A stretch of DNA of 64,000 bases from Massilia niastensis DSM 21313 (GTDB lineage: Bacteria; Pseudomonadota; Gammaproteobacteria; Burkholderiales; Burkholderiaceae_D), in assembly GCF_000382345.1 (NCBI RefSeq), contig NZ_KB908108.1:1-64000 (forward strand), given 5' to 3'. Positions 18,854-28,482 of this stretch are shown here, piece by piece. Every line of letters begins with the position of its first letter. Within the stretch, counting starts at the first letter, position 1. The translations under genes and the position numbers were made by a program. The notes under the pieces were generated by a model that made no database searches, had not been told where the DNA came from, and saw only the letters and a program-made list of their open reading frames with translations.

Positions 18854-19504
18854 CTAACGAACGCTGTGAACCGCCTCGCCTGAGCTGACATAGATCCGGT
18901 CGCCCGGCCCAGGGCGCACCGCATGCCCGCCGGTGAAGGCGCCGAAGGATGGCAGGATCATGCGCTGCGTCCCCACCACGAAGCACGGCAGGCGCAGCGC
19001 ATCGAAACGCGTCGCCAGGACATAGACAGGATGCACGTGGCCGGCCAGCGCATAGCCGGGCGTGTCCAGGTCGGGATGGTGGCAGAAGGCGAACGGCCCG
19101 ATGGCATGCGGTTCGTCGACCAGTTCGATGCCGAGCGCGGCCGCCGGGTCGCCCGCATGCAGGTCGTGGTTGCCGCGCACCAGGGTCAAGTTGAGCGCGG
19201 ACTGGCGCTGGCGCCAGGCCAGCATCGCCTGCTGGGTCGAACTGGCGTGGGCCGCGCGCGCATGCAGGAAGTCGCCCAGGAACACCACGTGGCGGGCGCC
19301 GTGCGCTTCGATGAGGGCGTCCAGTCCGGCCAGGTTTTCGCTGGTGGTGCCGCGCGGGACCGGCACGCCGAGCGAGCGGAAGGCCGCCGCCTTGCCGAAG
19401 TGGATGTCGGCGATGACCAGCATGCGCTCGGCCGGCCAGAACACCGCCTTTTCCGGCAGCAGCAGCAGGTCCGCGCCGCCGGCCTCGATCGTGACGCCGT
19501 TCAT
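18854..19504 (-). CDS. pdeM: Ligase-associated DNA-end-processing phosphoesterase (Pde)
   Basis: This 216-residue calcineurin-type metallophosphoesterase has the motifs ADIHFGK (Asp33, His35), FLGDFLHAR, RGNHD and GHVHP that bind two metals. Members next to Lhr-type helicases and ATP-dependent ligases form the Lhr-Exo-Lig-Pde repair set. The ATG overlaps the helicase stop codon by four bases (ATGA), giving tight coupling. The product ends 74 bp before the next gene. Confidence 0.92.
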   Translation of the reverse strand: MNGVTIEAGGADLLLLPEKAVFWPAERMLVIADIHFGKAAAFRSLGVPVPRGTTSENLAGLDALIEAHGARHVVFLGDFLHARAAHASSTQQAMLAWRQRQSALNLTLVRGNHDLHAGDPAAALGIELVDEPHAIGPFAFCHHPDLDTPGYALAGHVHPVYVLATRFDALRLPCFVVGTQRMILPSFGAFTGGHAVRPGPGDRIYVSSGEAVHSVR

Positions 19505-21963
19505 GCCGCGGCCGCCTTTTCCAGTTCGCGCACCATGCGCGCGACCCGCTCGGACAGCTTCTCGCTGCTGACCTTTTCGCGGTAGCGCTCGACCATCAGG
19601 GTGAAGCCGAAGGGCGTGGCGCGCTGCACCTCGTGGAAGGCGATGCGGCGCCCATGCAGGGCGGTGAGCGTGTCGCGCAGGCGGGTCAGCTCCAGTTCCT
19701 GCTCCATCACCTCGCGCTGGGCCTGGCTCAGGAGCAGGTTGCCGGAATCGTGTTTGCGGAACACTTCGAAGAACAGCGAGGACGAGGCCTGCAGCTGGCG
19801 CGCCGATTTCGGCTGGCCCGGATAGCCCTGGAAGATCAGCCCGGCGATGCGCGCCACTTCGCGGAAGCGCTGCTGCGAGAGCTGGGTCGCGTTCAGGCTT
19901 TCCAGCACGTCTTCCAGCAGGGTGCCGGTATCGAACAGGCCGATGCCGGCGCCGGTCTCCGCGTCGAAGATCCCGGCCCAGTCGACCGCCTCGGGCGCCA
20001 GCAGCTCGAAGCCGTAGTCGTTGACGGCGATCGAGAACGTGATCGGCCGGGTGCGCGCGATGCGCCAGGCGAACAGTGAGGCCAGTCCCATGTGCACGGC
20101 GCGCCCGCCGAACGGATACACGAACAGGTGGCAGCCTTCGCGGCTCTTCATGCGCTCGACCACCAGGGTCTCGGGCGTCGGCAGCGACGACCAGCGCTGC
20201 TGGACCTCGATCAGCGGGCGCAGCGCCTTCATCTCGGGTCCGTCGAACACGCCCTGCTCGGCCAGCCGCAGCTCTTCCAGGGCGGCGCGGGACAGCTCGT
20301 CCGACATCGGCATCTTGACGCCCGACCAGCGCACGATGGCGCCGCGCGTGCCGGTGGCGCGCTTCACGAAGGCCGTCATCTCGTGCACGCGGATGAATTC
20401 GAGGATGCGCCCGCTGAACAGGAAGTGGTCGCCCGGCTTGAGGCGCCCGATGAAGGACTCCTCGACGCTGCCGAGCCGTCCGCCGCTCATGTACTTCACC
20501 TGGATCGTCGAATCGGAGACGATGGTGCCGATGCCCATCCGGTGGCGCCGGCCGATGGCGCTGTCCGGCACCCTGAACACGCCCGTCTCGTCGGGCAGCA
20601 CGCGCCGGTATTCCGGGTACACGGTCAGGCTCTGGCCGCCGCGCGCCACGAAATCCAGCGCCCACTGCCATTCCTCTTCGTCGAGCGTGCGGTAGGACCA
20701 GCTGCTGCGCACCTCGTCGAACAGCTCGGCCGCATCGAAGCCGCCGCCCAGCGCCACCGTCACCAGGTGCTGCACCAGCACGTCGAAGGGCTTGTTCGGC
20801 ACGTAGCGTCCCTCGATGCGGCGCGCCGCCACCGCCTTCCTGGCGCCGGCCGCTTCCAGCAGTTCCAGGCTGTTGGTCGGCACCAGGGTCACGCGCGAGA
20901 TCCGTCCCGGCGCGTGGCCGCTGCGCCCCGCCCGCTGCAGCAGGCGCGCGATGCCCTTGGCGCTGCCGACCTGCAGCACCCGCTCGACCGGCAGGAAGTC
21001 CACGCCCAGGTCCAGGCTGGCGGTGCAGATCACCGCCTTCAGCACGCCGTTCTTCAGGCCCAGCTCGACCCATTCGCGCACGTCGCGGTCGAGCGAGCCG
21101 TGGTGCAGCGCGATCACGCCGGCCCAGTCGGGCCGCGCCTCGAGGATGTTCTGGTACCAGATCTCGGACTGCGCACGGGTGTTGGTGAACACCAGGGTCG
21201 CCTCGTAGTCCTCGATTTCCCTGATCACCGGCTCCAGCATCTGCATGCCGAGGTGCGCGCCCCAGGGAAAGCGCGCCACGTTGGCGGGGATCAGGCAGTC
21301 GACCACGATCTTCTTGCGCTGGTCGCCCTCGACCAGCACGCCCTCGTCCCGGCCCAGCAGCACCTGGCGCGCCAGGTCGAGGTCGCCCATGGTGGCCGAC
21401 ACGCCCCACACCAGCAGCTGCGGGCGCCAGCGGCGCAGCCGCGCCAGCGCCAGCTGCACCTGCACGCCGCGCTTGCTGCCCATCAGTTCGTGCCACTCGT
21501 CGACGATGATCATGTCCAGGTGGCGGAACTGCTCCTGCGCCGCCGCGTGGCTGAGCATCAGGGACAGGCTCTCGGGCGTGGTCACCAGGGCGGCCGGCAT
21601 GCTGCGCGTCTGGCGCGCCCGTTCGGCCGAACCGGTGTCGCCGGTGCGCGCGCCGATGCGCCATTCCGGCAGCAGCACGGCGGCCGAATCTTCCAGCGCG
21701 CGCTGGGTGTCGGCGGCGAGCGCGCGCATCGGCGTGATCCACAGCACCCGCAGGCCGGAGGCGCGCCGGTTCGCTTCCAGCCCGGCGCGCTGCAGGGCCG
21801 CGAACCAGACCGCGAAGGTCTTGCCGGCGCCGGTATTCGCGTGCAGCAGGCCCGATTGCCCGGCCAGCGCGGCCTCCCAGACCTCGCGCTGGAACGGGAA
21901 GGCCTTCCAGCCCTTCTCGGCCAGCCAGGCCTTGATACGCTTGCTGACGTCGTTGCCGCTCAT
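19501..21963 (-). CDS. Ligase-associated DEXH-box helicase (Lhr-Core type)
   Basis: The 820-residue product is a superfamily 2 DNA helicase of the Lhr family: Walker A HANTGAGKTF (Lys48), DEWHEL as the DEXH box, GVSATMGD motif III, and LLQRAGRSGHAPG motif VI, followed by the winged-helix and Lhr-specific domains. In the four-gene set it is thought to act with the exonuclease, ligase and phosphoesterase in DNA repair. Its length fits Lhr-Core without a C-terminal extension. Here it is separated from exo and lig by about 2 kb carrying a diguanylate cyclase. The chosen ATG lacks a clear ribosome site. Confidence 0.94.
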   Translation of the reverse strand: MSGNDVSKRIKAWLAEKGWKAFPFQREVWEAALAGQSGLLHANTGAGKTFAVWFAALQRAGLEANRRASGLRVLWITPMRALAADTQRALEDSAAVLLPEWRIGARTGDTGSAERARQTRSMPAALVTTPESLSLMLSHAAAQEQFRHLDMIIVDEWHELMGSKRGVQVQLALARLRRWRPQLLVWGVSATMGDLDLARQVLLGRDEGVLVEGDQRKKIVVDCLIPANVARFPWGAHLGMQMLEPVIREIEDYEATLVFTNTRAQSEIWYQNILEARPDWAGVIALHHGSLDRDVREWVELGLKNGVLKAVICTASLDLGVDFLPVERVLQVGSAKGIARLLQRAGRSGHAPGRISRVTLVPTNSLELLEAAGARKAVAARRIEGRYVPNKPFDVLVQHLVTVALGGGFDAAELFDEVRSSWSYRTLDEEEWQWALDFVARGGQSLTVYPEYRRVLPDETGVFRVPDSAIGRRHRMGIGTIVSDSTIQVKYMSGGRLGSVEESFIGRLKPGDHFLFSGRILEFIRVHEMTAFVKRATGTRGAIVRWSGVKMPMSDELSRAALEELRLAEQGVFDGPEMKALRPLIEVQQRWSSLPTPETLVVERMKSREGCHLFVYPFGGRAVHMGLASLFAWRIARTRPITFSIAVNDYGFELLAPEAVDWAGIFDAETGAGIGLFDTGTLLEDVLESLNATQLSQQRFREVARIAGLIFQGYPGQPKSARQLQASSSLFFEVFRKHDSGNLLLSQAQREVMEQELELTRLRDTLTALHGRRIAFHEVQRATPFGFTLMVERYREKVSSEKLSERVARMVRELEKAAAA

Positions 21964-22000
21964 GGGATGGGTCGAAGTCCGTGTCTCATGGTCGAATACG

Positions 22001-22033
22001 CCCCAAATTCACCTCCGTGTCCGCGGTTTGGGG
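22001..22033. promoter_or_regulatory. Inverted repeat upstream of the Lhr-type helicase
   Basis: CCCCAAA (22001-22007) and TTTGGGG (22027-22033) are perfect 7-bp inverted repeats separated by 19 bp, starting 38 bp upstream of the helicase ATG. The arrangement would suit a dimeric regulator or a looped leader. It does not match the LexA consensus. Confidence 0.3.
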
Positions 22034-22155
22034 TCATCATACACTGCAGGAACCGGCGAGAAAGTGCTAGGTGAAGTAAGCTCATTGCGTGTATTGTTTT
22101 TTTTCGCATCAAGTATGCCGATCGCGTCATCGCAGCCCTGGTTGAGATTAAGGAA

Positions 22156-22392
22156 ATGAGCAATCGTCAAAATCGATCCGATGTCGATACTGCAAAGGCG
22201 GTCACGCGCGGCATCAATATCCTGACCGTGCGCAACCGCTCAGTGGCGCAGAAATACATGGAATACAAGCGTGTTCCCCCGAGTGTCATCACGCGCGTGC
22301 TCGACAATCCGTCGTCGCGTCGCATGCCCAGTGCGGAGCAGCTGATTTCGGAAGCCATCACCCCTTCGTCCCCAAGCCCTGCCGACGAATAG
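22156..22392 (+). CDS. Small conserved-looking protein of unknown function
   Basis: The 78-residue product (starting MSNRQNRSDVDTAKAV) is basic in its first two thirds, with a predicted helical region (RSVAQKYMEYKRVPPSVITRVL) and a Ser/Pro-rich acidic tail. No signal peptide or membrane helix is visible. TTAAGGAA lies immediately before the ATG, closer than usual. The gene is divergent from the helicase and 85 bp before the diguanylate cyclase. I do not recognise the family; coding is likely but not proven. Confidence 0.55.
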   Translation: MSNRQNRSDVDTAKAVTRGINILTVRNRSVAQKYMEYKRVPPSVITRVLDNPSSRRMPSAEQLISEAITPSSPSPADE

Positions 22393-22477
22393 CCGGGCTG
22401 CCAGCCGTAGCCGGATCAGCCCGGTCCGTCACCACGGATCTCCCCGGGCAGCAGCCAACACAGGAGACCCGCGAGCA

Positions 22478-23551
22478 ATGAGGAAGCCTCAGGCAGAAGC
22501 GAGACAGCTCGGCCCGGCCCAGCTGCGCGTACTGCTGACACTGTCGCGCGAACTGCTCCAGGCCGACGAGGCGGGCAGCTCGCTCGAACTGGTCGGCCGC
22601 GCCCTGGCCGAGATGATCCGGCCCGACTCGGCCTTGCTGCTCCTGCGCGGCGAGCGGCTGGATATCGTCGGGTTCGACAACCGCGGCGTCGCCCATCCAG
22701 CCGGAACCGGCCATGCGCTGTATCAAACCGCGATGGCCCTGTTGTCCGGCGTGGGGCCGGCCGTGCACGACAAGGCGCATGGCAACCGGCGGTGCGAACA
22801 CGTCGGGCAGCGTACACTCGCCCTGGCCGTGCCGGCGCATGCCGCGATTGCCGCTCTCGCCGTTGCATGGGACCATGAGCCGAGCGCAGCAGAGCTGGAC
22901 AGGTGCAGACAGGCGCTGTCGCATATCCTGGAGCTGACTGCGGCGGCGCTGGGCAAGATCGAGGCGCGCAGCTCGCTGGAGCGGCTCGTGTGGGACCAGC
23001 GCGAGCAGATCGCACACAGCTCCGATGCCCATGCCGCGGAACTGGCGCGACGGGACGAGACGGCGACCAAGATGCGCATGCTGTCGCTGACCGACGTCCT
23101 GACGGGCTTGTACAACCGGCGCGGCTTTTTCCTGCAGGCGGAGCAGGTCTTCAAGGTGGCGCAGCGCAAGCATGCCAACAGCGCCGTGATCTTCGCGGAC
23201 ATCGATGGCCTGAAGCGCGTGAACGACGACCTCGGCCACGACATGGGCGATCGCCTGATACGGGACGCCGCGATCGTGTTCCGCCAGTCCTTTCGCCAGG
23301 CCGACGTGGTGTCGCGTCTTGGCGGAGACGAGTTCGTCGCCTACACCCTCGACGACGAGCAACCGGAAGCGATCCTGGCGCGTATCCGGGCCAGGCTGCG
23401 CGCGTTCAATCTCAGCCAGGAACGGCCGTACAGCGTGTCGATCAGTGTCGGAGTCGTGCAATGCGATCCGGGCGGCGCGCAGACGCTGTCGCACTATGTG
23501 CAGCTGGCCGACAGGCAGATGTATGCCCAGAAGCGCAGCCGCCTCCATTAA
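22478..23551 (+). CDS. Diguanylate cyclase with GAF-like sensor region
   Basis: The 357-residue product would make cyclic di-GMP from two GTP. The C-terminal GGDEF domain is complete: the active site GGDEF is at residues 282-286, and the product-inhibition site RQAD (273-276) lies exactly five residues before it, so feedback inhibition is expected. DVLTGLYNRRGFF marks the domain start. Residues 1-160 form a soluble, GAF-like region, and a charged helix (160-200) links the two. There is no membrane segment. It stands on the plus strand inside an otherwise minus-strand DNA-repair block. Confidence 0.9.
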   Translation: MRKPQAEARQLGPAQLRVLLTLSRELLQADEAGSSLELVGRALAEMIRPDSALLLLRGERLDIVGFDNRGVAHPAGTGHALYQTAMALLSGVGPAVHDKAHGNRRCEHVGQRTLALAVPAHAAIAALAVAWDHEPSAAELDRCRQALSHILELTAAALGKIEARSSLERLVWDQREQIAHSSDAHAAELARRDETATKMRMLSLTDVLTGLYNRRGFFLQAEQVFKVAQRKHANSAVIFADIDGLKRVNDDLGHDMGDRLIRDAAIVFRQSFRQADVVSRLGGDEFVAYTLDDEQPEAILARIRARLRAFNLSQERPYSVSISVGVVQCDPGGAQTLSHYVQLADRQMYAQKRSRLH

Positions 23552-23585
23552 GGATGCAAACAGGCGCGCCCGGGGCGACTGCGGT

Positions 23586-23837
23586 TCATCTGTCCGTCTC
23601 GAACGATTCTTCGTTCTCCGCGGTCGCGCGCTCCGCAGCCATGCCGTCTTCCCGCGCCTCGAAATCGTCATCGACCTCCGGCGGGTTCAGCATGTCCGCC
23701 AGCATCGCTTGCAGTTCCGGCGTGTCCCACGGCTCGCCACTGCGCTCTTTCGTATGGATATAGTGCCTGATTTCGCTTTCCTGCTCGTCCGTTAACGGAA
23801 GGCCGCGGAAAGTCGTCTTGGGGATGTCCTCATTCAT
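23586..23837 (-). CDS. Small acidic protein of unknown function
   Basis: The 83-residue product (starting MNEDIPKTTFRGLPLTDEQE) is strongly acidic, especially after residue 50. Its middle part, IRHYIHTKERSGEPWDTPEL, looks like a folded helical core. An in-frame TTG eight codons upstream is less likely than the ATG at 23837; neither has a strong ribosome site. It converges with the diguanylate cyclase, with 34 bp between stops, and lies 176 bp after the ligase gene on the same strand. The family is not recognised. Confidence 0.6.
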   Translation of the reverse strand: MNEDIPKTTFRGLPLTDEQESEIRHYIHTKERSGEPWDTPELQAMLADMLNPPEVDDDFEAREDGMAAERATAENEESFETDR

Positions 23838-24013
23838 GATGCTCACACTTTCGATCAACAACGCCGAACGGTTTGCGGTCGGGCCGAGCGCGGCGTTGCG
23901 CCGGCGGCGACGAGACGGGCGCTTCCAACGAACCCGTACACCTCGAATCTATACGTATTTCTTGTCGGCAGGCGCACGTGTGACCGTTTTTTGCGCAGTG
24001 CCGGGTAGCCTGC

Positions 24014-25648
24014 TCATGGCGTCGCCGCGGCCAGCAGGCCCTTGAGGGTGTCGAGGGTGTCGGCTTCCTCGACCGGCTTGTCCTCGCGCCGGCGCAGGAT
24101 GCGCGGGAAGCGCACCGCGATCCCGGCCTTGTGGCGCGGCGAGAGCTGGATGCCTTCGAAGCCGATCTCGAACACCATGGTCGGCTTGACCGAGCGCACC
24201 GGCCCGAACTTCTCGATCGTGGTGCGGCGGATCGCATTGTCGACCTGGGCGATCTCGGCGTCGGTCAGGCCGGAATACGCCTTCGCGAACGGCACCAGGC
24301 GGCGCCCGGCGCCCTCGCCGTCCCAGACCGCGAAGGTGTAGTCGGTGTAGAGCGAGGCGCGCCGTCCGCTGCCCGGCTGGGCGTACAGCAGCACGGCGTC
24401 CACCGTGTAGGGATCGATCTTCCACTTCCACCAGGTGCCCACGTCCTTGGTCCGTCCCACGCCATAGCGCGCCTCGCGCGCCTTGAGCATCATCCCTTCC
24501 ACGCTGCGCGCACGGGAGGCGGCGCGCAGCTCCGCCAGCTCGTCCCAGCTGGCGGCCCGCACCAGCGGCGACAGGCGCAGCTGCGCCTGCGCCAGCGCGG
24601 CGACCTCGGTTTCCAGCAGCGCGCGCCGCTCGTGCTGGGGCAGATGGCGCAGGTCGACGCCATCGAGCTCCAGCAGGTCGTAGCAGCACAGCACGGCCGG
24701 CAGTTCGGCCAGCAGCTTGCCCGACAAGGTCTTGCGGCCGATGCGCTTCTGCAGGTCGGCGAACGGGCTTGGGACGTCGCAGCCGGGCTGCCAGATCAGC
24801 ACCTCGCCGTCCAGCACCATGCCCTCCGGCAGGCGCAGCGCGGCCAGCTCGGGGAAGCGCTCGGTGATCAGGTCTTCGCCGCGCGACCACAGGTAGCTCT
24901 GGCCGCCGCGCCGCACCAGCTGGGCGCGGATGCCGTCGTACTTCCATTCGACGATCCAGTCGTCGACCTCGCCCAGCGCGGATGGCTCGCCCTGCAGCTG
25001 GTGGGCCAGGAAGAAGGGATACGGCTGGCCGCCGCGCAGCTGGTGTTCCGCGTCGGTCTGCTCGGCGATCAGCTGCAGGAAACCCGCGGCGGTCGGCGCC
25101 ACCCGGCCGTCGGTCCAGCCCATCAGGCGCTGGGCGATCACCTTGCTGTCCACCGCCGCGATCGCGGCCAGCGCCCGCGTCACCAGCAGGCGCGAGACGC
25201 CGACCCGGAAGCCGCCGCCGATCAGCTTGACGAGCAGGAAGCGTTCGCGCCAGTCGAGTTCATCCCAGTAGCTGAACAGGGCTTCGCGGATGCGCCCGGG
25301 ATCGGCGCCGCGCAGCGGTCCGATGCGCTGTTCCATCCACTCGGCCAGGCCGACGTCGGAGCGCCGGGTCGGCGCCGGCAGGATGTGGGCGATGGTCTCG
25401 GCGAAGTCGCCGACCGCATGGTAGGACTCGTCGAACAGCCACTCGTCCAGGCCCGCGTAGTCGATCGCGTACTGGCGCAGCAGCTTGACCGGCACCGCCT
25501 GGCGCGGCTTGCCGCCGGCCAGGAAGTACACGGCCCAGGCGGCGTTTTCCGGGGTCGCGTGGGAGAAATACTGCTGCAGGGCGTCGAGCTTGCGGGTGGT
25601 GGACGTGGTTTCGTCCAGTTCGGCGTACAGGCGGGCGAATTCACGCAT
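24014..25648 (-). CDS. ATP-dependent DNA ligase (Lhr/Exo-associated)
   Basis: The 544-residue product seals nicks using ATP. Residues 1-200 form the N-terminal DNA-binding domain; motif I EWKYDGIRAQ contains the adenylated Lys236; LDGEVLIW is motif III and EGMMLKA motif IV; an OB-fold domain follows. It is typical of the stand-alone bacterial ligases encoded with an MBL exonuclease. The ATG has GGGAGAAG before it and lies inside the end of the exonuclease gene (8-base overlap), so the two are coupled. Confidence 0.95.
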   Translation of the reverse strand: MREFARLYAELDETTSTTRKLDALQQYFSHATPENAAWAVYFLAGGKPRQAVPVKLLRQYAIDYAGLDEWLFDESYHAVGDFAETIAHILPAPTRRSDVGLAEWMEQRIGPLRGADPGRIREALFSYWDELDWRERFLLVKLIGGGFRVGVSRLLVTRALAAIAAVDSKVIAQRLMGWTDGRVAPTAAGFLQLIAEQTDAEHQLRGGQPYPFFLAHQLQGEPSALGEVDDWIVEWKYDGIRAQLVRRGGQSYLWSRGEDLITERFPELAALRLPEGMVLDGEVLIWQPGCDVPSPFADLQKRIGRKTLSGKLLAELPAVLCCYDLLELDGVDLRHLPQHERRALLETEVAALAQAQLRLSPLVRAASWDELAELRAASRARSVEGMMLKAREARYGVGRTKDVGTWWKWKIDPYTVDAVLLYAQPGSGRRASLYTDYTFAVWDGEGAGRRLVPFAKAYSGLTDAEIAQVDNAIRRTTIEKFGPVRSVKPTMVFEIGFEGIQLSPRHKAGIAVRFPRILRRREDKPVEEADTLDTLKGLLAAATP

Positions 25649-26699
25649 CGGCTTCTCCCGCGGGCGCCTCCGCTTCCTGCGCGGCGGCCCGGCCGGCCGG
25701 CGGGGTCGACTCGTCTTCTTCCTCGTCCCCGTATTCGGTGTCGAAGCCGGCGGCGTCCAGGCCGTTCTGGCACAGCCAGCGCACCAGCACCGGGATCGAG
25801 CCGTGGGTGACGATCACGCGCCCGGCTTCGGTCGCCTTGATCGCGCTCATCAGGCCCGGCCAGTCGGCATGGTCGGACAGCACGAAGCCGCGGTCCACGC
25901 CGCGCCGGCGGCGCGCGCCGCGCAGCAGCATCCAGCCGCTGGCGAAGGCGTCGCTGTAGTCGCCGAAGCGCTTCATCCAGGGCGAACCGCTGGCGGACGG
26001 CGGCGCCACCACGATGGCGCGGCGCAGGTCGGCCTTGTCGACCTCGCTGACCATGCGGGTCTCGGGCAAGGCCACGCCGCCGGCGCGGTAGACCCGGTTC
26101 AGCGGCTCGACCGCGCCGTGGCAGACGATCGGCCCGATCGACGGATCGAGGCCCGACAGGATGCGCTGCGCCTTGCCGAAGGCGTAGGCGAATACCACCG
26201 AGCAGCGTCCCGCCTCGGCGTTACGGCGCCACCAGGCATTGATCTCGTCGAGGATCTGCTGTTCCGGCTCCCAGCGGTAGATCGGCAGGCCGAAGGTCGA
26301 TTCGGTGATGAAGGTGTCGCAGCGCACCGGCTCGAAGGGCGCGCAGGTCTTGTCCGGCTCGACCTTGTAGTCGCCCGAGGCGACCCAGACCTCGCCGCCG
26401 CATTCCATCCGGACCTGCGCCGAGCCGAGCACGTGGCCGGCCGGGTGCAGCGAGATCGCCACGCCGTTGTGGACGACCCGCTCGCCGTAGGCGACGCCGT
26501 CGATCGAGATGTCGCCCAGCCGCGACTTCAGCACGTTCACGCCGGCTTCGGCCGACAGGTAGTGCCCGTGCCCGTAGCGCGCATGGTCGCCATGGGCATG
26601 CGTGATCACGGCGCGCTCGACCGGCCGCCACGGGTCGATGTAGAACTGGCCCGGTACGCAATACAGTCCTTCCTTGCGGACGACGACCATGTCTCCCAT
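25641..26699 (-). CDS. Ligase-associated metallo-beta-lactamase-fold DNA exonuclease
   Basis: The 352-residue product belongs to the MBL/beta-CASP-like nucleases. The metal site THAHGDHARYG (His34, His36, Asp38, His39) and later SGDYK, SDHADW and VTHG motifs are present. In the Lhr-Lig-Exo-Pde set this enzyme trims DNA ends for the ligase. A GGGGAAGGGA ribosome site precedes the ATG and lies in the 17-bp gap after recQ, so recQ, exo and lig form one transcription unit. The C terminus is an acidic, Ala-rich tail. Confidence 0.93.
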   Translation of the reverse strand: MGDMVVVRKEGLYCVPGQFYIDPWRPVERAVITHAHGDHARYGHGHYLSAEAGVNVLKSRLGDISIDGVAYGERVVHNGVAISLHPAGHVLGSAQVRMECGGEVWVASGDYKVEPDKTCAPFEPVRCDTFITESTFGLPIYRWEPEQQILDEINAWWRRNAEAGRCSVVFAYAFGKAQRILSGLDPSIGPIVCHGAVEPLNRVYRAGGVALPETRMVSEVDKADLRRAIVVAPPSASGSPWMKRFGDYSDAFASGWMLLRGARRRRGVDRGFVLSDHADWPGLMSAIKATEAGRVIVTHGSIPVLVRWLCQNGLDAAGFDTEYGDEEEDESTPPAGRAAAQEAEAPAGEADA

Positions 26700-26716
26700 G
26701 CGGTCCCTTCCCCGGA

Positions 26717-28426
26717 TCAGGCCGGCTCGAGGTAGTCGGCCAGGAAGCTGCGGCTGTCCTGGTCCGGGAACGCCAGCGTCACCTGGTCGCCGGCCACGGC
26801 CGTCACCACGCCTTCGCCATACCTGGGCGCCTTGGCGCGTGCGCCGACCTCGAAGCGCGGACCGCTCGGCTCGGGTGCCGGCGCGCGGTCGAACTCGTCG
26901 TCGCGGATGGCGATGTCTTCGGTCAGGGCGAGCGCCGGCGGGTTCAGGCAGTTATCGCAGCGGCAGCACTTCTCGAAACCGGGCGCCTCGTCGCCGAAAT
27001 AGTCGAGCAGCAGCTTCCAGCGGCAAAAGCCGCTGACCGCATAGCCTACCATCTGCTCGAGCGCTTCGCGATCGCGTTCCTGCTTCTGGACGTAGACCCG
27101 GGCCAGTCCGGCAAAGTCATCGGCCTTGGGCGCGGCCCTGGTCGGCAGGTATTCGAGCTTGCGGTTCTGGCGCAGCAGCTTGGCGTCCTTCAGCAGCTTC
27201 AGGCTGGCCTTGATGCTGGCCTCGGCGAGCTCCTCCAGCCGCTCCTCGATCCGCCCGGCGGTCACGGGGCCGTCGCCGAGCAGCACCTTCACCGTCTCGT
27301 AGATGGCCTTCAGTTCCTCGGCAGTCGGGTAATGCTTGATCAGGAAGAACTGCTGGATGCGCTTGTCGTCCTGCAGGAACAGCAGGGTGCACCGGGCGTC
27401 CAGGCCGTCGCGGCCGGCGCGGCCGGATTCCTGGTAGTAGGACTCCAGGTTGGCCGGGATCTGCAGGTGGATCACGAAGCGGGTATCGCTCTTGTCGATG
27501 CCCATGCCGAAGGCATTGGTCGCGACCATGACCCGCCGTTCGCCGTCCATGAACAGGTCCTGGTTCAGCTTGCGCTCGGCGGCCGGCAGCTTGCCGTGGT
27601 AGATCGTCACCGACTCGCCCGCCTCTTCCAGCACGGCCAGCATCTCTTCGGCGGCCTTGACGGTGGCGGCATAGACGATGCCCACGCCTTCGGTCTCGCG
27701 CACCAGGCGCAGGGCTTGCGCGTATTTCTCTTCCGCGTTCGTCACCTGCACCACGCAGTAATGCAGGTTGGGCCGGTAGATGCCGGTATTGATGACATTC
27801 ATTTTCGGCCGGTCGAGCTGCCGGGCGATGTCGTCCACCACCTCGTCGGTCGCGGTGGCGGTCAGCGCCAGGATCGGCGGCCGGCCCAGGGCGTCGATGG
27901 CGCCGGCCAGGCCGATGTAGGCCGGGCGGAAGTCATGCCCCCACTGCGAAATGCAGTGCGCTTCGTCGATCACGACGATGTCGAGCGTGACCTTGCGCAG
28001 CAACTCGATGAATTCCGGCGTCACCAGGCGCTCGGGGGTGCAGAACACGATCTCGCAGGCTTGCTCTTCGATGGCCTGGAGGGCGGCATGCTCTTCCTCG
28101 GCGTTCAGGCTGGAGTTGACCTGGACCGAGCGGATGCCGAGTTCCTCCAGCTTTTCGAGCTGGTCCTTCATCAGCGAGATCAGGGGCGAGACCACGACCG
28201 TGATCCCTTCCAGCATCCTGGCCGGGATCTGGTAGCACAGCGACTTGCCGCCGCCGGTGGGCATGATGGCCAGGGTGTCGCGACCGTCGAGGACGCTGTC
28301 GATGACGTTCTGCTGGCCTTCACGGAGTTGTTCGATGCCGAAGACGGAGTGCAGCAGCCGGCGGATGGTGTTGCGGCGCACGGCGAGCAGGCCGCGGTGC
28401 AGGAGGGTGGGGTCGTGTCGGGTCAT
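26717..28426 (-). CDS. recQ: RecQ-family ATP-dependent DNA helicase
   Basis: The 569-residue product has helicase motif I MPTGGGKSLCYQIP (Lys61), DEAHCISQWGHDFR, motif VI QESGRAGRDG and the RecQ zinc-binding region (FEKCCRCDNC). No HRDC domain is seen. Instead the last 50 residues form a small domain, VGARAKAPRYGEGVVTAV...FLADYL, like the beta-barrel found at the C terminus of some UvrD-type helicases. The ATG at 28426 is used; a GTG at 28438 is possible. It heads the exo-lig unit, linking RecQ to end processing and ligation. Confidence 0.93.
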   Translation of the reverse strand: MTRHDPTLLHRGLLAVRRNTIRRLLHSVFGIEQLREGQQNVIDSVLDGRDTLAIMPTGGGKSLCYQIPARMLEGITVVVSPLISLMKDQLEKLEELGIRSVQVNSSLNAEEEHAALQAIEEQACEIVFCTPERLVTPEFIELLRKVTLDIVVIDEAHCISQWGHDFRPAYIGLAGAIDALGRPPILALTATATDEVVDDIARQLDRPKMNVINTGIYRPNLHYCVVQVTNAEEKYAQALRLVRETEGVGIVYAATVKAAEEMLAVLEEAGESVTIYHGKLPAAERKLNQDLFMDGERRVMVATNAFGMGIDKSDTRFVIHLQIPANLESYYQESGRAGRDGLDARCTLLFLQDDKRIQQFFLIKHYPTAEELKAIYETVKVLLGDGPVTAGRIEERLEELAEASIKASLKLLKDAKLLRQNRKLEYLPTRAAPKADDFAGLARVYVQKQERDREALEQMVGYAVSGFCRWKLLLDYFGDEAPGFEKCCRCDNCLNPPALALTEDIAIRDDEFDRAPAPEPSGPRFEVGARAKAPRYGEGVVTAVAGDQVTLAFPDQDSRSFLADYLEPA

Positions 28427-28482
28427 GATAAGGCTCACTGTAGGTCCCGGACCCGGACTCGACTATAGGACCCGGCCTACTG

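Follow-up and report, generated by a model that had tools for sequence, protein, structure and literature searches.

Why does a cluster of DNA repair genes that is normally contiguous begin with a recQ-type gene, and why is it split by the gene of a diguanylate cyclase? A locus of Massilia niastensis DSM 21313 raises both questions. It lies in the window, i.e. the whole stretch of 64,000 nucleotides that we analysed; the genome holding it has 6.6 Mb, and the best named matches of the window recQ are in Massilia. Our analysis makes it quite probable that the locus combines a known repair cluster, a conserved RecQ head with a Tudor tail found in the Massilia group, and a passenger cassette that opened the lig-lhr junction of the window strain.

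The repair genes all lie on the minus strand, in the order recQ-exo-lig and, after 2,050 bp, lhr-pde. The recQ-type helicase gene (26717..28438, 573 aa, with an alternative ATG start at 28426; TIGR00614, RecQ_Zn_bind) is separated by 17 bp from exo (25641..26699), which encodes a member of the ligase-associated MBL-fold exonuclease family (TIGR04122, 493 bits against a cut-off of 325) and overlaps by 8 bp with lig (24014..25648), the gene of an ATP-dependent DNA ligase (TIGR04120, 687 bits against 400). The gene of the Lhr-core helicase, lhr (19501..21963; TIGR04121, 1093 bits against 850; WH_Lhr, DEAD_assoc), overlaps by 4 bp with pde (18854..19504), whose product, PdeM, is of the phosphoesterase family (TIGR04123, 229 bits against 150). 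Since all four proteins exceed the curated NCBIfam cut-offs, the locus is, as far as sequence can tell, the known Lhr-Lig-Exo-Pde repair cluster, with its four genes within 10 kb in the window strain and lig and lhr parted by the 2,050-bp insert. The initial annotation had described two tight units about 2 kb apart, recQ joined to exo by 17 bp, and a plus-strand diguanylate cyclase with two small genes in the gap, all of which the coordinates confirm; the two small genes are on opposite strands, A on the plus and B on the minus strand.

We scanned the window for CTGT-N8-ACAG, which we take to be the LexA-type box motif, and with one mismatch allowed found 7 boxes against 14.6 expected, none of them upstream of recQ; the match at 26259 lies inside exo. 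A consensus scan for sigma-70-type sites returned none. The matches of recQ and lhr to helicases of PADLOC (DpdF, BrxH, SngC and others) were read as matches to a shared core.

The position of recQ at the head of the cluster is constant in the genus. The ligase is present in 60 of the 62 genus genomes, and in all 60, the window's included, recQ is directly 5' of exo on the same strand, with 11-153 bp between the match ends (11-62 bp in 54 of them). Both the genus and the family loci were collected via lig and hence are unbiased for recQ. The family count comprises 65 loci, nine of which are also counted as congeners, and leaves out the ligase-bearing genomes G017, G086, G105 and G114; two loci are cut by a contig edge. 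Among the 63 readable ones recQ adjoins exo in 31 and does not in 32. The linked loci represent all or part of the genera g1, g4, g6, g12 and g40, and no linkage was seen outside these five genera in the family sample. In the order sample of 250 genomes, 43 genomes outside the family have exo, and none of them has a RecQ at E<=1e-140, the range that this search covered, beside it; four carry such a RecQ somewhere in the genome, the nearest being 7.7 kb away on the opposite strand (G424). These three counts support RecQ as a lineage-specific fifth gene of the cluster in the Massilia group, as judged from gene order. The proposal of the initial annotation that RecQ is a fifth member holds for this group, where the linkage is clearly not peculiar to the window strain, and fails as a general rule.

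We also collected named loci via recQ, a set that is biased towards recQ by its making and from which a Clostridia match with 24% identity (L043) was left out. In 37 of its 41 loci (L002-L042) exo comes directly after recQ, and the exceptions, Massilia cavernae (L032) and three Duganella, have recQ without the cluster. In Massilia cavernae (L032:3867-6864) the downstream gene and fnr come directly after recQ; exo-lig-lhr-pde are missing from this otherwise conserved place, which is probably a natural deletion that left recQ behind. The linkage of recQ might thus be mere gene order without functional meaning, as the retention of recQ in this species and the confinement of the observed linkage to five genera in the family sample would suggest, but the association is unbroken in the 60 ligase-bearing genus genomes and mostly very close, and we consider this reading possible though rather unlikely.

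What kind of RecQ heads the cluster? The window RecQ passes TIGR00614 (370.5 bits, cut-off 219.8), falls below the equivalog TIGR01389 (462.8 bits, cut-off 640.2) and matches RecQ_Zn_bind (PF16124) with 41.6 bits; the Pfam search gave no HRDC match. The same genome has a second and stronger recQ_fam match on contig 20 (73611-74957), with 523 bits versus 357 for the window RecQ, and this may perhaps be the main RecQ of the genome. At the C-terminus of the window RecQ, the profile and the predicted fold both place a Tudor-like domain at residues about 525-573. A profile built from the last 73 residues and 13 relatives matched the Tudors of UvrD/PcrA (7egt with E 5e-6, 4c2t with 6e-4 and 5dma with 0.03). 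The model of the tail has a mean pLDDT of 79, with about 90 from fragment residue 31 on, and its best Foldseek matches are 7egt, 7egs and 6yi2 with E 1e-3 to 5.5e-3; UvrD/PcrA Tudors occupy ranks 1-3 and 5 (E 1e-3 to 1.1e-2), no match has an E below 1e-3, and other SH3-like barrels score almost as well. By similarity of both sequence and fold, the C-terminus is predicted to be a UvrD/PcrA-like Tudor domain. According to the PDB titles, 7egs is a complex with an RNA polymerase lobe and 7egt a complex with UvrB. In the family search 54 of the 61 RecQ matches reach residue 570 or beyond, linked or not; the presence of the tail is thus not bound to the cluster.

The 2,050-bp insert (21964..24013) interrupts the lig-lhr junction, at which the two genes typically overlap. 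The overlap is 4 bp in all five outgroups (ATGA in four, GTGA in one) and exactly 4 bp in 41 of the 51 listed insert-free genus rows; G179 is not among these rows and was counted from the gap survey of the 60 junctions. Being both the common and the outgroup state, the 4-bp overlap is by this comparison the ancestral one. The cluster is indeed normally contiguous, as had been proposed, with no insert at 52 of the 60 genus junctions, and the remaining eight have the cassette, part of it or a relic. The notion that the insert is unique to the window strain was dropped, as congeners carry it too. The window strain (G000) has A, cyclase and B; G181, G213 and G192 have A and cyclase, G206 has cyclase and B, G175 has A and B, and G217 has A alone, while G079 has a relic of about 190 bp with little kept besides TGCTAGACT. 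Across the window's genome and the six congeners, the cassette genes keep one order and orientation; these parts were called by tblastn matches, so that decayed remnants may be missed. A lig-lhr gap of 706 bp in G223 was rejected as an insert, being an artefact of a split lhr, which matches there (L136) as two overlapping pieces, likely owing to a frameshift.

Our survey of 60 genus genomes and 5 outgroups found TGCTAGACT facing lhr in 5 of the 65 loci, i.e. G181, G192, G213, G217 and the relic of G079, and not in the window strain. We infer that it is a putative promoter for lhr-pde. The window strain alone of the eight carriers has an 8-base repeat, CCATGAGC, at both edges of the insert, and the other seven share 4-6 bases; as a control, 6 of 5000 random 20-mers from the window locus share 8 bases with the right insert edge. 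Because the 8-base repeat is limited to one carrier, we do not claim a target duplication. Among the 25 longest of 78 inverted-repeat pairs none joins both insert edges as a terminal repeat, and neither A, B nor the cyclase matches a transposase in Pfam or PHROGs.

The cassette consists of gene A (22156..22392, plus strand, 78 aa), predicted to be helical from an 18-member alignment and a model with mean pLDDT 72, the diguanylate cyclase (22478..23551, plus strand; PF00990, TIGR00254), and gene B (23586..23837, minus strand, 83 aa), whose relatives adjoin the cyclase in other genomes. The N-terminal half of the cyclase has no Pfam match. Its GGDEF motif and its RxxD I-site, which we take to be the inhibitory site, are intact, and both are kept in all seven cyclases examined. 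Relatives at E<=1e-3 were found in the 175-genome family sample in 20 other genomes for A, many of these matches being weak, and in 19 for B. In the 11 pairs compared across the three genes pN is at most half of pS, with pN 0.19-0.25 and pS 0.44-0.53 for the cyclase, 0.09-0.23 and 0.44-0.62 for A, and 0.15 and 0.53 for B (one pair). With relatives in other genomes and this low pN, A and B are more than chance open reading frames. A comparison of the fold of A with the PDB gave no match better than E 6, and searches of PHROGs and PADLOC gave none for A or B. As judged by eye, each of the two small genes has similar upstream motifs at the junction and at other sites. Upstream of B, positions 23838-23900 of the window have a palindrome-like CAACGCCG...CGGCGTTG in common with G175.

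The cassette is found at other places as well. At E 1e-70 or better the cyclase occurs in 17 of the 62 genus genomes, in 5 at the junction and in 12 elsewhere, the latter in several unlike neighbourhoods. In 10 of these 12, A immediately precedes the cyclase on its strand (in G113 as read across two contig ends), and in 7 of them B is convergent downstream. The junction cyclases together with that of G067, a genome of another genus without this ligase, form one clade with support 100/98, and a clade of the five junction cyclases alone is not rejected (AU p 0.093). A gene for a fatty-acid desaturase lies 5' of gene A in G220 (L118:6011-7222) and G067 (L111:7324-8508) and, by similarity, also in G202; in G220 and G067 the C-terminal part of the same gene also matches DDE_Tnp_ISL3. 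This neighbourhood is perhaps an older home of the cassette.

How did the insert come to its present distribution? On the tree of the five cluster proteins, which is a tree of the cluster's own genes, the carriers are scattered over a 38-row clade that holds all of them (support 92/75). Seven carriers need seven changes if G079 is not scored as a carrier, and a single gain would need 12 losses with G079 included; neither the 12 losses nor about seven separate changes make a simple history. The lhr gene itself gives a further clue. The lhr N-terminus of G181, G079, G213 and G217, which are carriers in a 12-row clade, resembles that of a 9-row clade. In the first 372 nt of lhr, a grouping of these four with their own clade is rejected (AU p 0.0002, 37 rows chosen by clade), and their grouping with the 9-row clade has a limited support of 89/94; 1.5 kb further down lhr, the four join their own clade (SH-aLRT 99) and the data reject the 9-row grouping (p 0.0005, 63 rows). 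We defined the groups with the N-termini already in view, and a first test with 300 nt and without the N-terminal codons, also on 63 rows, was not significant (p 0.083). Since four carriers have lhr 5' ends that fall in with a lineage other than their own, it looks as if homologous recombination between congeners had moved the insert together with flanking lhr and had accounted for part of its spread. The lhr of the window strain groups with its own nearest relatives, which, together with CCATGAGC at both edges, would fit a separate or recent entry.

One could instead assume that the cassette entered once, long ago, in the common ancestor of the 38-row clade, and that vertical descent with many precise losses followed, without any lateral spread. 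Such a history would agree with the confinement of every carrier to that clade and with the cyclase tree, including the five junction cyclases that may stand alone, and G079 and G217 suggest that losses do occur. But most of the 12 losses would have to restore the exact overlap, and the foreign affinity of the four lhr 5' ends also speaks against it, so we hold a history of this kind to be improbable.

GGDEF genes are numerous in these genomes, with 54-128 first-look candidates per genome, not all of them real, and GGDEF neighbours are therefore expected by chance. In genus g9, L104 carries a different CHASE3-GGDEF gene between exo and lig, and a GGDEF match is found at the same place in L105; given the number of candidates, we treat this as a coincidence. 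In L104 (6664-16510), L105 and L106, loci of genera g9 and g35, each junction of the repair genes is interrupted, and in L104 the separators are the CHASE3-GGDEF gene, an unassigned open reading frame and a DRL-type oxidoreductase. It is very unlikely that the cassette cyclase, through its c-di-GMP and together with A and B, adjusts the expression of lhr-pde or repair under stress, a link between signalling and repair that the initial annotation had raised: the same junction, order and orientation in seven genomes and a relic, the cyclase clade with G067 and the g9 genes between exo and lig could be cited for it, but 52 of 60 congeners have no insert, the cassette parts are missing singly (the inserts of G175, G217 and G079 being without the cyclase), the cyclase occurs elsewhere in 12 genomes, it lies on the opposite strand, A and B have conserved upstream motifs of their own as judged by eye, and chance alone would provide GGDEF neighbours, so that a functional tie is not supported. 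Between relatives the inserted genes do vary largely freely, even if the insert is shared beyond the window strain.

We therefore return to the passenger cassette in a RecQ-headed repair cluster. The cassette, with its own transcription, would have entered the lig-lhr junction once or a few times and then have spread partly via homologous recombination between congeners. After insertion, a promoter within the insert would drive lhr-pde; once in, a cassette that supplies the lhr promoter would be hard to lose whole. The cyclase would act independently of repair. The repair set would most likely work here as elsewhere, its helicases opening the DNA or translocating, Exo and Pde acting on ends or single strands and Lig sealing, with RecQ possibly bringing it, via the Tudor tail, to (stalled) RNA polymerase or UvrB. 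That the cassette recurs at exactly the same junction, always in one orientation, speaks against a mere passenger, being unlike free random movement. The clade of the junction cyclases with G067 points to a junction preference or a shared ancestor, and some benefit of the cassette is possible. Taking both parts together, we speculate, as a tentative and rather doubtful proposal, that the Tudor-RecQ is a working fifth part coupling repair to transcription through RNA polymerase or UvrB, and that A-cyclase-B moves as a cassette lacking a transposase, has the lig-lhr overlap as its favoured site and stays there because it replaces the promoter of which its insertion deprives lhr-pde, as the relic of G079 suggests.

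The conserved RecQ with its RNA-polymerase-type Tudor tail offers a testable entry point into the role of the cluster. The insert suggests how a passenger cassette opens a tightly coupled operon and how the allele may then be passed between species, and it advises caution in that c-di-GMP control should not be read from gene neighbourhood in GGDEF-rich genomes. Our literature search brought up no publication that describes a bacterial RecQ with a Tudor tail or an A-cyclase-B cassette, which is weak evidence as most subscription journals were outside its reach.

The closest known system is the LigB-type operon, the original work on which is reportedly that of Ejaz and Shuman in 2018. This operon comprises an Lhr helicase, a DNA ligase, a phosphodiesterase and an MBL-fold exonuclease, and its precise role is not known according to the accessible part of PMC10140301, which makes no mention of RecQ. 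The locus resembles it in that all four proteins score above the NCBIfam cut-offs and in the overlaps of exo with lig and of lhr with pde, and differs from it in the Tudor-tailed RecQ found at the cluster head in the Massilia group and in the cassette that parts lig from lhr in the window strain. The C-terminus of PcrA/UvrD binds RNA polymerase (PMC3797733, accessible part), and its Tudor (PDB 7egs, 7egt, 6yi2, 5dma) has its likeness, in profile and predicted fold, in residues about 525-573 of RecQ; here the Tudor sits on a RecQ-type helicase, for which partner binding is a proposal. The cassette cyclase is like other GGDEF diguanylate cyclases in its intact GGDEF motif and RxxD inhibitory site, and is unlike them in an N-terminal half that matches nothing in Pfam and in being often accompanied by the small genes A and B.
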